From NCBI GenBank assembly GCA_016789955.1, contig JAEUPB010000089.1, positions 1 to 45,643 on the forward strand: a stretch of 45,643 nucleotides of DNA, in the 5' to 3' direction. Of this stretch, positions 6,084-42,041 are shown one piece after another (the stretch's first letter is position 1; the number at the start of each line of letters is the position of its first letter). The notes beneath the pieces are model-generated. The model ran no database searches. It had not been told where the DNA came from and saw only the letters and a list, made by a program, of their open reading frames with translations. Source of the stretch: Rubrivivax sp. (GTDB lineage Bacteria; Pseudomonadota; Gammaproteobacteria; Burkholderiales; Burkholderiaceae_C). Made by a program: the position numbers and the translations under genes.

Positions 6084-6983
6084 CTATTCGTCGTTGGCGG
6101 CCGCCCGCGGCCCGCGGTCGGCCGCATGGGCCACGCCGGCGCTGCCCTGCGTGGCCATCGACGCCGCCTGGCCCAGCGCGCGGCGCAGCAGTGATTCGGC
6201 ATCCTGCGCCTGGCTCGGGAATGCCGCCAGCCCGGCCGTGACGCGCACCGAGCAATCGCGCCCGGCCACCGAGAACGGCTGCGCCAGCGCCTGCGCGAGC
6301 TTGGCGGCCACGCGCACGCCGTCCTCGGGGTCTTCGATCCAGGCCAGCAGCACGGCGAAGGTGTCGGCGCCCAGCGACGCCACCACGTCGCTGGCGCGCA
6401 GACCCGCGCGCAAACGCACCGCCACCTTGCGCTTGAGCACGTTGGTCGATTCGGTGCCGAGGATCTCGGCCATCGCCGTGAGCCCCTCGACGCGCAGCAC
6501 GATCAGCGCCATCGGCGCCGGCTCGCGCGCGCGCAACGCCACGAGGTGCGTGACGTGTTCCAGCAGTTGCATGTGGTTGGGCAACCCGGTGGACAGATCG
6601 GTGGCGTAGGCCTTGCGCGCGGCCTTCTCGAGGCCCTTGCGCTCGATGGCCAGCCGCAGCACGCGTGCCAGCGCCGGCGCGTCGCCCGGCGGCACCACGT
6701 CCTGCACGCCCATCTGCAGCAGCCGCACGGCCAGCGCTACGTCGGGCTCGGGCGTCAGCAGCACCACGGCGGCGTCGAGCACCGCGTGCGAGAGGGCCGG
6801 CCACGCCAGCAGGGGCGACGGGTCCTTCAGCTCGATGAGCACCGCGTCGTGCGGCTGCACGCGCAACTGCTCGGCGGCCTCGGCCAGCGTCGGGCAGTGC
6901 TGCACGACGAACGGCCCGTAGGCCGACCCCCACAGCTCCGGCGGCTGCACCGTGATCGCCAGGACGTGGAACGGCTCGGACAT
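6084..6983 (-). CDS. Degenerate GGDEF protein with pseudo-receiver domain
   Basis: A 299-residue protein. Residues 1-110 resemble a response-regulator receiver, but the phosphorylation Asp position reads Glu (VLIELKDP) and the acidic pocket near the N-terminus is missing. Residues 125-285 form a GGDEF domain, with DLSTGLPN at its start. The signature loop reads GADTF at 205-209 instead of GGDEF, so diguanylate cyclase activity is unlikely. It may be a sensor or a structural partner. It is convergent to gabD with only 24 nt between stops, and a 15-bp direct repeat (cggcccgcggtcggc) occurs on both sides of its stop. Family assignment is good; function is unknown. Confidence 0.8.
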   Translation of the reverse strand: MSEPFHVLAITVQPPELWGSAYGPFVVQHCPTLAEAAEQLRVQPHDAVLIELKDPSPLLAWPALSHAVLDAAVVLLTPEPDVALAVRLLQMGVQDVVPPGDAPALARVLRLAIERKGLEKAARKAYATDLSTGLPNHMQLLEHVTHLVALRAREPAPMALIVLRVEGLTAMAEILGTESTNVLKRKVAVRLRAGLRASDVVASLGADTFAVLLAWIEDPEDGVRVAAKLAQALAQPFSVAGRDCSVRVTAGLAAFPSQAQDAESLLRRALGQAASMATQGSAGVAHAADRGPRAAANDE

Positions 6984-39980: not shown

Positions 39981-40692
39981 TCACCCGTCCTTTCCCGCCT
40001 CCATGAAGACCTCCTCGCGGGCCGCGGACGGGGCATCGCGCTCCGGACCATCGAGCACCGCGGCGATGGCGACGCCGACGCCTGCACCGAACAGCTGAGC
40101 GACGATGAAGCCGGGCACGCTGTCCGGAGAGATGCCGGCAAAGCTGTTCGAGAACATGCGGCCGAAAGCGGCAGCCGGGTTCGCGAACGACGTCGACGCG
40201 GTGAACCAGTAGGCGGCGCCGATGTAGCAGGCCACCATGGCCGCGACGCGGCCGGGCTGCGCGCACAGAATGACGAGCAGCAGGCCCGCCGTCGCTACGA
40301 CTTCGGCGATCCACTGCCCGGGGCCGCCGCGCACCTTGGTGGAGAACTGGAGGATCGTCGCGTCGAACATCGCGTGCGCCAGCCAGGCGCCGAGCACCGC
40401 GCCGGCAAGCTGCGCCGTCACGTAGGGCACCAGCAGCGGCCGCGGCAGCGCGCCGCGAGCAGCCATCACGATCGACACGGCCGGGTTGAAGTGCGCGCCG
40501 CTGACCGGTCCGAACACCTCGATCAGGATGTAGAGGCCTCCCACGGTGGTCCAGCGTGTTGGCCAGCAGCGCGACGCCCACGTTCCCGCCGGAGAGCTTC
40601 TCGGCCATGATCCCCGAGCCGATGACCACCGCCAGCAGCAGTGCGGTGCCGAGGGCTTCGCCCAGCAGCTTGCGAACCAGGTCGGGCTGCAT
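39981..40692 (-). pseudogene. aqpS: Aquaglyceroporin-like arsenite channel (AqpS type), frameshifted
   Basis: MIP-family channel interrupted by a single-base insertion. The N-terminal part (MQPDLVRKLLGEALGTALLL...NVGVALLANTL) ends in one frame, and the rest (GGLYILIEVFGPVSGAHFNPAVS... and FANPAAAFGR, both NPA motifs) is in another. The extra base is the T at 40550 (CTGGaCC on the coding strand, where CTGGCC is expected). The span of 712 nt is 3n+1, as expected from one insertion. In AqpS-ArsC systems such channels let arsenite out after arsenate reduction. It is either a real pseudogene or a sequencing error. Confidence 0.85.
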
Positions 40693-40820: not shown

Positions 40821-41318
40821 TCAGCGCTTTCCGATGTCCTTGATCTCGCGCTGGATCGCCAGCTTGTCCAGGCTGGCCAGCGGCAGCGAGAGCATCAGCT
40901 GGATGCGTCGCTGCATCGTCACCAGGGTGTCGCGGAAGGCCTTCTCGACCGCGGCCTCCGGTCCTTTGACCGCCGCCGGATCGGGCATGCCCCAGTGCGC
41001 CGTCATGGGCTGGCCCGGCCACACCGGGCAGACCTCGCCCGCAGCCTGGTCGCAGACCGTGAAGACGAAGTCCAGCGGCGGCGCGTCGGGCTTCGCGAAC
41101 TCCTCCCAGCTCTTGCTGCGGTACCCGTCGATCGGGAGACGGTGCTGTTGCAGCGTCTTCAACGCCCAGGGATGGACAGCCCCCTTGGGGTGGCTGCCGG
41201 CCGAGTAGGCCTTGAAGCCACGATCCTTGCCCATGTCGTTCATCAACGCCTCGGCGAGGATGGAGCGCGCGGAGTTGCCGGTGCACACGAACAGCACGTG
41301 GTACGTCTTGTCGGCCAT
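40821..41318 (-). CDS. arsC: Arsenate reductase, low-molecular-weight phosphatase type
   Basis: A 165-residue LMW-PTPase-fold enzyme that reduces arsenate to arsenite, usually with thioredoxin. The P-loop C12-TGNSA-R18 is intact (FVCTGNSARS), with further cysteines C89 and C97 in VCDQAAGEVCPVWPG. The C-terminal helix QRRIQLMLSLPLASLD is family-typical. The ATG at 41318 is only 11 nt downstream of the inverted-repeat element, with AAGGTCC-like spacing but no strong ribosome site, so its expression may depend on the element. Confidence 0.93.
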   Translation of the reverse strand: MADKTYHVLFVCTGNSARSILAEALMNDMGKDRGFKAYSAGSHPKGAVHPWALKTLQQHRLPIDGYRSKSWEEFAKPDAPPLDFVFTVCDQAAGEVCPVWPGQPMTAHWGMPDPAAVKGPEAAVEKAFRDTLVTMQRRIQLMLSLPLASLDKLAIQREIKDIGKR

Positions 41319-41361
41319 CGAAGGTCCTAGTGTCGTGAGTTGGAAATACGCTGCATTGAGA

Positions 41362-41458
41362 CGGGTCGCAATGGGGCTGGAACCAGGCGCGCGGACGGGT
41401 CGATACCCGGTGGTATCGACCCGTTTGCGCAACGCCGTGCCGGCCCCATTTCGACCCG
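41362..41458. repeat. Arm 1 of the composite element
   Basis: Outer stem 41362-41380 pairs with 41440-41458 (17 of 19 bp). Inner perfect 13-bp stem 41395-41407 / 41412-41424 with a CGGT loop. The inner core GATACC-N4-GGTATC is shared with arm 3. Confidence 0.8.
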
Positions 41459-41496
41459 CCCCTGTCGGGGCCGAGGCCCCTCTCTCTGGGATCGGG

Positions 41497-41595
41497 TTCG
41501 ACCAGATGGCGCCCTCGATCGACCGCCCAGCGGGGTTGATACCACCCGGTATCAACCCCGCTGCTCGTCCGCCCGATCATCGCCATCTGGTCGAA
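41497..41595. repeat. Arm 3 of the composite element
   Basis: Outer perfect 15-bp stem 41497-41511 / 41581-41595. Inner perfect 16-bp stem 41528-41543 / 41548-41563 with an ACCC loop, again with core GATACC-N4-GGTATC. The arsR-frame stop codon (41554-41552) lies in this inner stem. Confidence 0.8.
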
Positions 41596-41902
41596 TCTCA
41601 ATGCAGCGTATTTCCAACTCACGACACCAGCAGTTGCACGAAGGCGCCTCGAGCTCGCAGGGTTGCCCCTCGCAGCAGTTCGAGGTCAGGAATCCCATCA
41701 GCTCGTTCATCCGGTCGAGCGAGGCGCGGTAGATCAGGTGGCGGCCGTCACGCGTCTGGCTGACCAGCCCCGCGAACAGCAACTCCTTGAGGTGGAACGA
41801 CATGGATGCCGGCGAGATGCCGAGCTGTTCGTTGAGCACCCCGGGTGTCAATCCGGTCCGCCCGGCCACCACGAGCGCGCGCAGGGCCTTGAGCCGGTGC
41901 AC
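41552..41902 (-). CDS. arsR: ArsR/SmtB-type arsenic repressor, start codon lost and 3' end altered
   Basis: A 116-residue ORF from GTG at 41902. The winged HTH (LGISPASMSFHLKELLFAGLVSQTRDGRHLIYRA) and Cys-rich C-terminus (NCCEGQPCELEAPSCNC) mark it as an As(III)-responsive ArsR. Family similarity extends upstream in frame (NIEQAAQSLGALSQ) to an ATA at 41947-41945, where homologues have ATG; a stop is found further up. The last about 26 codons after CNC derive from the inverted-repeat element. The GTG start would drop the first helix, so the protein may be non-functional. Confidence 0.75.
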   Translation of the reverse strand: MHRLKALRALVVAGRTGLTPGVLNEQLGISPASMSFHLKELLFAGLVSQTRDGRHLIYRASLDRMNELMGFLTSNCCEGQPCELEAPSCNCWCRELEIRCIEIRPDGDDRADEQRG

Positions 41903-42041
41903 CTGAGAGAGGGCACCCAGGGACTGGGCCGCCTGTTCGATGTTTATCGCGCCATCTTCAAAGCGTCATCGAACTGTTTCAGGGAAAGATGACAGCGGCG
42001 TGACGGTCCCTCGCGTGGAGTCGGCCTCCACCCTGCGCCGG

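Follow-up and report, generated by a model that had tools for sequence, protein, structure and literature searches.

A probable composite IS630-type MITE with a folding interior between arsR and arsC-type genes of a Rubrivivax genome

Introduction

MITEs are commonly regarded as shrunken insertion sequences (ISs) with a functionless interior. The window analyzed here, a stretch of 45,643 nucleotides of Rubrivivax sp. DNA (assembly GCA_016789955.1, contig JAEUPB010000089.1), contains a 298 bp element that lacks a transposase gene, has perfectly paired ends, and carries an interior drawn up into three arms. This raises the questions of whether the element belongs to a mobile family, what might move it, and whether its interior has been kept for its ability to fold.

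An element with perfect ends and a three-armed interior

The element and the genes on either side of it are arranged as follows.

41330..41627, no strand: whole element, 298 bp
41330..41361, plus strand: left terminal inverted repeat, 32 bp, starting GTGTCGTGAGTTGGAAATAC
41596..41627, minus strand: right terminal inverted repeat, 32 bp
41327..41330: CTAG at the left junction, of which TA (41328-41329) is one copy of the target duplication
41628..41629: second copy of the duplication, now CA; on the minus strand this gives TGG where the arsR genes of relatives stop
41369..41449, minus strand: arm 1, with the conserved core (CGTTG, hairpin, GCGCC); 62.5 bits with covariance model R1, this copy (locus L001) being itself among the 27 sequences used to build the model
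41458..41471: arm 2, a small hairpin GCCCC-TGTC-GGGGC, with 4 bp of stem in the predicted fold
41471..41495: extra weak predicted hairpin of 4 + 3 bp, absent from the sequence-only reading
41497..41595: arm 3 (arm A in the alignments), with a 15-bp stem, an internal loop, and a 16-bp tip stem GATACC-N4-GGTATC
41552..41902, minus strand: ArsR-type regulator (HTH_20), whose frame enters the element, the last 25 codons lying past the stop position of relatives
40821..41318, minus strand: next gene, an ArsC-type low-molecular-weight phosphatase (LMWPc; Pfam run on 40821-41330)

The sequence-only reading that first drew attention to this element was exact in its coordinates and accurate in its account of the pairing. 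The ends (41330-41361 and 41596-41627) pair at 32 of 32 bp, and the longer repeat that it noted (41327-41361/41596-41630, 35 nt) is 97% complementary. The tip stem of arm 1 pairs at 17 of 19 positions (41389-41407/41412-41430) and stands on an outer stem of 7 + 11 bp, and the two stems of arm 3 pair at 15 of 15 and 16 of 16 positions. Between these arms lies the small arm 2, recovered as a CCCC-TGTC-GGGG hairpin, and the motif GATACC-N4-GGTATC is present at the tips of both large arms. Folded as single-stranded DNA the element has an energy of -134.3 kcal/mol, compared with -57.7 +/- 3.8 for shuffled sequences (z -20.3), a value matched by none of 200 dinucleotide shuffles. The 21-bp end, allowing up to three mismatches, occurs twice in the window and not once in 100 shuffles. 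The reported lack of a transposase also holds, in that every listed open reading frame of at least 80 aa extends beyond the element, and for four of the element's own frames, 82-99 codons in length, Pfam yielded nothing at E 0.1.

Copies in the same genome and in relatives

The genome containing the window (G000) is a draft of 5.26 Mb in 116 contigs, estimated to be 79.6% complete. A search with the element yielded 17 matching stretches and a search with its end yielded 20 places, two of which belong to an IS and one of which (contig C100) is chance-like. Five copies have both ends (the window copy, C42, C114, C75, and C34:46754) and seven have one (C45, the C34 end, C39, C17, C86, the C28 end, and C29). 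The C45 copy is truncated and the other six run off their contigs, so that these six are possibly halves of the same copies. The ends fall into two subtypes, GTGTCGTGAGTTGG... (window, C34, and C39) and GTGTCCTGTCCCGG....

Among 61 relatives, any match was found in four, G000 included, and those outside G000 are merely stretches of 27-54 bp. When 399 genomes of the family were searched by pattern, the ends were located in 15, again counting G000. One of these other genomes, G255, is a single 6.6-Mb contig and has seven copies of 264-269 bp that are 98-100% identical to the query copy, together with a 220-bp form, one of 173 bp at two differently flanked sites, one of 145 bp, and two that are shorter. 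The 173-bp form lacks arm 1 and gives no match to the core; its occurrence at two such sites shows that arm 1 is dispensable for movement. One of the shorter forms (L204, G255:C1:4532250-4533310) is little more than two ends, with CTG replacing CTA on one side; this is perhaps a product of palindrome deletion. A third genome, G456, a MAG titled Burkholderiaceae, has one copy of 272 bp (L100). When this copy was used as a DNA query against 399 genomes of the order, the only match was in the genome that contains the window, a weak negative with about two candidates scored per genome.

Copies in G000 and G255 lie at unrelated sites with unrelated flanks. The proposal that the element belongs to a mobile family is thus borne out by five both-ended copies in its own genome and by relatives in two other genomes, and copies with the same ends are found both in its own genome and in G255; its mobility is well supported by these comparisons. 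An assembly artefact of a repeat-rich stretch was the alternative raised by the sequence-only reading, and the 116-contig draft, with six partial copies at contig ends, is the kind of setting in which one might arise. However, the same design is present at many sites of the single G255 contig, so for the family an artefact is scarcely credible.

A plasmid collection contained nothing that matched the element, arm 3, or a Pseudomonas relative of 160 bp, and a phage collection gave one match, to the Pseudomonas relative. This match (MT835554.1, 4433-4561, unannotated, in a phage record from human faecal samples) covers 81% of that relative at 88.4% identity. In genome G392 the same end pattern is present at position 105-127 of each of four contigs (C10, C42, C162, and C218), which suggests a repeat that breaks that assembly.

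Target site and candidate transposases

Scanning bacterial genome contigs for TAG followed by a degenerate end recovered 92 stretches, many titled Pseudomonas and others Gemmatimonadales, Acidobacteria, Krumholzibacteriia, Lysobacter, Chloroflexi, and more. Across the full set of loci, both ends fall within 310 bp at 85 places, and TA is present on both sides in 74 of these and CTA...TAG in 66, for a sample in which the filter required TA on at least one side, leaving the other free, and in which many places are Pseudomonas copies of one family. The window copy has CA instead of TA on one side. One viral contig, L134 (IMGVR_UViG_3300025606_000288), was the sole one with a degenerate IS630-type end, at position 6580, and no partner end was found in it.

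Five full-length ISs of 1146-1163 bp have such ends with CTA/TAG flanks, and all of them contain DDE_3 and HTH domains. The expectation that an IS would share the ends of the element was upheld in part. At one end, the genome's own IS630-type IS (L165, C28:36650-37810) agrees with the TCCC subtype over the first 12 bases, and at the other over four. The GAGTTGG subtype of the window is nearly matched elsewhere only, by ISs from other genomes of the family, at 17 and 17 of 20 bases for the ends of L137 and 15 and 18 of 20 for those of L139; an IS with this subtype was not found in the element's own genome, which is 79.6% complete. Of six genomes checked for DDE_3, three have it (G000, G025, and G283) and three do not (G255, G281, and G456). 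As G255 and G456 carry the family, a present-day mobilizer was not found in those two. Taken together, the ends, the CTA/TAG flanks, and the DDE_3-containing relatives of approximately 1.16 kb point to mobilization in trans by IS630/Tc1-type transposases, on the evidence of sequence comparison.

There are precedents for such an arrangement. RUP of Streptococcus pneumoniae is a 107-bp MITE of IS630-Spn1 and, by the description in PMC2229807, resembles our element in being small, in having ends like those of an IS630-type IS, and in having TA at its target; it differs in its length and in that no two-arm interior is described there, the two being compared by description. The IS630 preference for TA within CTAG is stated in the title of a 1991 paper cited in PMC2170065, and IS630 and ISY100, of the IS630/Tc1/mariner family, share the TA duplication according to the same source. 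Both are autonomous, whereas the window element lacks a transposase.

Insertion at the arsR stop codon

The element lies between co-directional arsR and arsC-type genes, both on the minus strand, and the arsR reading frame runs into it. We compared the 3' ends of arsR at 30 loci, one of which lacks the SFHL motif and one of which is the window itself, leaving 28 relatives. In these, the protein continues for 53-72 residues after the SFHL motif (59-64 in 25 of the 28), compared with 84 in the window, where the last 25 residues are encoded beyond the former stop position. The junction sequence, CTA/GTGTC...GACAC/CAG, fits insertion into a CTAG target that held the TAG stop codon of arsR, with a later change of TA to CA on that side. 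An identical unoccupied site was not found among the arsR 3' ends of the 28 relatives, and the stop position fits insertion there; the empty site at arsR is one that we infer from the stop position in relatives together with the TA/CTAG flanks. The arsC motif is 55-89 nt past the arsR stop in seven of the 28 relatives, further away in four, and was not found in 17.

A general preference for stop codons was considered and rejected. In 17 of the 26 copies that were inspected, the intact TAG junction terminates an open frame of at least 100 codons, and five of the eight other CTAG sites of the window do likewise; there is therefore no enrichment, and we make no claim beyond arsR. Following arsC on the same strand, a gene at 39981-40544 has a partial match to MIP (aquaporin); some arsenic operons have an aquaporin in place of an arsenite pump.

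The location between arsR and arsC also accommodates a reading in which the element is an RNA element of the ars operon, transcribed between the two genes and acting as a terminator, an attenuator, or an RNase III site. Small MITEs such as Correia/NEMIS have been proposed to act in these ways (PMC2229807). However, copies elsewhere have unrelated flanks, and no Rfam 15 family exceeds its cut-off in window positions 41000-42000, the best score being 28.1 bits against a cut-off of 137. Eight related loci gave nothing relevant in Rfam 15, the sole match being a tRNA elsewhere. We regard a function as an ars RNA as unlikely, and the base-pair counts described below bear on it further. The element might conceivably have some effect on arsC.

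The arm-1 core is widespread

The core of arm 1 extends well beyond the family. Allowing up to one mismatch per anchor, the core string is present in 63 of 74 end-bounded elements of up to 310 bp and absent from 11, although many of the 63 are near-identical Pseudomonas copies and L103 (100 bp) is chance-like. Forty-nine of the 63 are 157-162 bp long, and in 60 a distance of 53-55 bases separates the end of the 3' anchor from the right end, the window copy having 53. The L100 copy fails the string test, and its core is detected by the covariance model R1.

With R1, built from 27 cores with a short calibration and applied at E <= 0.001 per genome, 68 of 398 genomes in the window's phylum (41 of 213 genera) have matches, as do 81 of 396 in the phylum to which L061, a Terriglobia MAG, belongs. 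Going by the sequence-only reading and by the titles of L100 and L061, we take these phyla to be Pseudomonadota and Acidobacteriota. Because 11-12 candidates were scored per genome in these large searches, core copy numbers are lower bounds, and because Acidobacteriota, the intended control, is positive for the core, there is no clean negative phylum. In a set of 22 chosen genomes 13 match, with titles that include Gemmatimonadales, Palauibacter, Krumholzibacteriia, Longimicrobiales, Lysobacter, and Deltaproteobacteria; the other nine, all of which had been picked for an IS630-like end, gave no core match. Only L042, L076, and L131 match among 45 loci that include the ISs L092 and L137-L139, and L165, the IS of the window's genome, lacks a core. 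Searches of the literature by concept and by letters, with a coverage that omits figures and most subscription journals, turned up no description of the core.

Inverted pairs of cores are frequent, their starts lying 105-109 nt apart (126 in L263), in places with a CCCTTCGGG-like linker. They are present in G1191 (OX639965), which has 45 core matches, and in G025, as well as at L224, L226, L229, L236, L254, L258, L261, L272, and L276.

Hairpins with conserved unpaired bases, and cores that in some cases form inverted pairs about 107 nt apart, are reminiscent of REP/REPIN sequences, and a hairpin of that kind moved by a tyrosine (HUH) transposase is a further reading, which we think very improbable. 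The element has terminal inverted repeats at two ends with TA flanks, a combination that fits a DDE transposase. In PMC3733652, REPs are described as 20-40 bp in length with GTAG or CGTC tags. From the same text, the CGTC-tagged REPs and the neisserial dRS3 were considered as candidates and do not fit, having stems of 8-9 bp and loops of 4-5 bp.

Cores with other ends

Of 80 core matches, 12 lack 70-nt flanks. Among the remaining 68, a flanking inverted repeat exceeds the 99% null level in 25 and fails to exceed it in 43 (null median 7, observed median 14.5). We delineated 16 single-core elements, with ends picked by eye; 14 are 159-162 bp long, and the other two, which come from G255, measure 169 and 171 bp. 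Their flanks differ by end type: TA on both sides (L209, L211, L212, L219, L231, L339, and L342), TA against CA or TG (L213 and L348), CTAG on both sides (L217), CTAG against CTGG (L336), TTAA on both sides (L238), CTAAG on both sides (L325), TGA on both sides (L317), or ambiguous (L233 and L250). G255 and G456 also carry core elements with other ends.

The element's own genome contains a further core element at L351 (G000:C37:102650-103150), 263 bp long with ends GGCCTGTTCACACTACGG and CTAG on both sides. Its two cores (57.5 and 37.9 bits) are inverted relative to each other, with a small hairpin between them, and its fold has a z of -20. L351 is a second three-armed family in the same genome, with the three-arm plan of the window element and other ends.

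Several known repeats share some of these features. The element bcr1 of Bacillus cereus is approximately 155 bp long, folded, and flanked by a 5-bp duplication; by description it is like the core elements in size and folding, and it differs in occurring in other bacteria and in its 5-bp duplication. MITEPsy1 of Pseudomonas syringae is 100 bp long with the end GGAAGGTCTGAAAAAGCC and a CTAG or YTAA duplication, and is marked 'IS5?' in a table of its paper (PMC3189936). In its ends and duplication it resembles the GG-ended core elements L217, L238, and L351, which have CTAG or TTAA flanks; it is unlike the window element in its length and in being listed as 'IS5?' rather than as IS630 type. By analogy, the GG-type ends may be of the IS5 type. 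The CIR repeats of Caulobacter have two arms and a linker, as our element does, but PMC2229807 distinguishes them from repeats in which the 5' end pairs with the 3' end, and the ends of our element pair perfectly. BRE, from Bordetella and other Betaproteobacteria, is described in PMC3110155 (section 14) as a GC-rich repeat of about 90 bp, mostly intergenic, with signs of mobility and an obscure role; its likeness to the core is one of description, its sequence being absent from that text.

Pairing is conserved while sequence varies

A structural alignment was assembled from 15 elements, 14 of them distinct and drawn from only about five lineages. In this alignment 98.5% of 1364 cells are paired, and two-sided changes that preserve the pairing are seen at 39 of 104 pairs. 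Not one of 500 shuffles attains any of five pairing measures, and when the partners are slid by 1-3 columns only 33-41% of cells are paired. The claim that the element is more structured than an ordinary MITE is therefore supported by covariation, and the structure, as judged from the aligned sequences, is under long-term constraint.

The changes are distributed unevenly. Within lineages there are no compensated changes in 39 sequence pairs, against mean uncompensated changes per pair of 1.8 (G255) and 4.0 (the C42 group); since such pairs differ at few paired sites, the zero rests on few changes. Pairs drawn from different lineages have on average 8.0-23.7 compensated changes and 3.7-11.0 uncompensated ones. 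We read this, with the small within-lineage numbers in mind, as new copies decaying randomly and only paired versions founding lineages.

The same data speak to the reading in which the element is a plain IS630 MITE whose palindromic interior is a by-product of template-switch repair of quasi-palindromes, without selection. Bacterial quasi-palindrome correction is established, and two-sided changes with few one-sided intermediates of standard pairs fit it. However, rapid correction predicts the opposite of the within-lineage pattern, few as those changes are, and it is the internal-loop sequence that has been kept too. Of 107 aligned cores, 100 could be parsed with anchors fixed to five allowed variants (leaving seven unparsed), and CGTTG is present in 89 of the 92 that are distinct. 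We consider such repair a decidedly unlikely source of the interior.

The cores themselves also vary in sequence while remaining paired. In 51 that are less than 80% alike, the pair next to the anchors is G-C or C-G in 50, and the next three positions each include all four Watson-Crick types, the pairing being inflated because the model contains some of these pairs.

Mismatch counts bear on the nature of the acting form. Over all columns of alignment A2 (1468 cells) there are 49 G-T and 11 A-C cells, an excess that favors the ars RNA reading, but 39 of the G-T cells sit in three columns, and without these the counts are equal (G-T 10, A-C 11). In 51 distinct cores A-C exceeds G-T (22 against 8, p 0.016), a hint that the other strand folds in the manner of RNA. 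The counts favor neither form consistently; we lean towards DNA, as a cruciform or a single strand, rather than RNA as the acting form.

Discussion

We think it likely that the element is a non-autonomous composite IS630-type MITE, mobilized in trans, with a folding interior that has been kept and a core that is widespread. In the mechanism that we favor, whose first step comparison strongly supports, an IS630/Tc1-type DDE transposase acting in trans would recognize the GTGTC... ends, excise the element, and insert it at the TA of a CTAG with duplication of TA. Each end begins with G, so CTAG would be rebuilt at both junctions, and a gene whose TAG stop codon is the target, such as arsR, could initially remain unaffected. 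The interior presents two large hairpin arms whose stem sequence varies while pairing is kept, as covariation supports; because the stems keep their pairing and the internal loops their sequence, the element appears to be kept as a folding module. Finally, the arm-1 core may be the functional heart of the wider set of elements of about 160 bp, where it would probably either bind a common host factor or shape a single-stranded form that aids copying or tolerance, with the ends serving as exchangeable handles for whichever transposase is present.

Carried further, these observations allow a broader reading that we regard as evenly balanced between being right and wrong, namely that the arm-1 core marks an ancient, phylum-crossing class of gene-less elements built to one plan, in which the core is the heritable unit, is recognized by a host factor that these bacteria share, and has swapped ends. 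Under that plan an element would be about 160 bp long, with approximately 54 bp on either side of a hairpin with the fixed internal loop CGTTG/GCGCC, and would in some cases be doubled to give three arms, the window element being one such composite. The exchanged ends would belong to unrelated DDE transposases and would include IS630-type ends with a TA duplication and IS5-like ends with a 4-bp CTAG or TTAA.

The element at arsR illustrates how insertion at CTAG may land on a stop codon, with a later change allowing the gene to read into the element. Should the core prove to be a shared recognition module, a single system would take in many of the palindromic repeats that are now anonymous in bacteria, and a direct search for the core-binding factor could begin.
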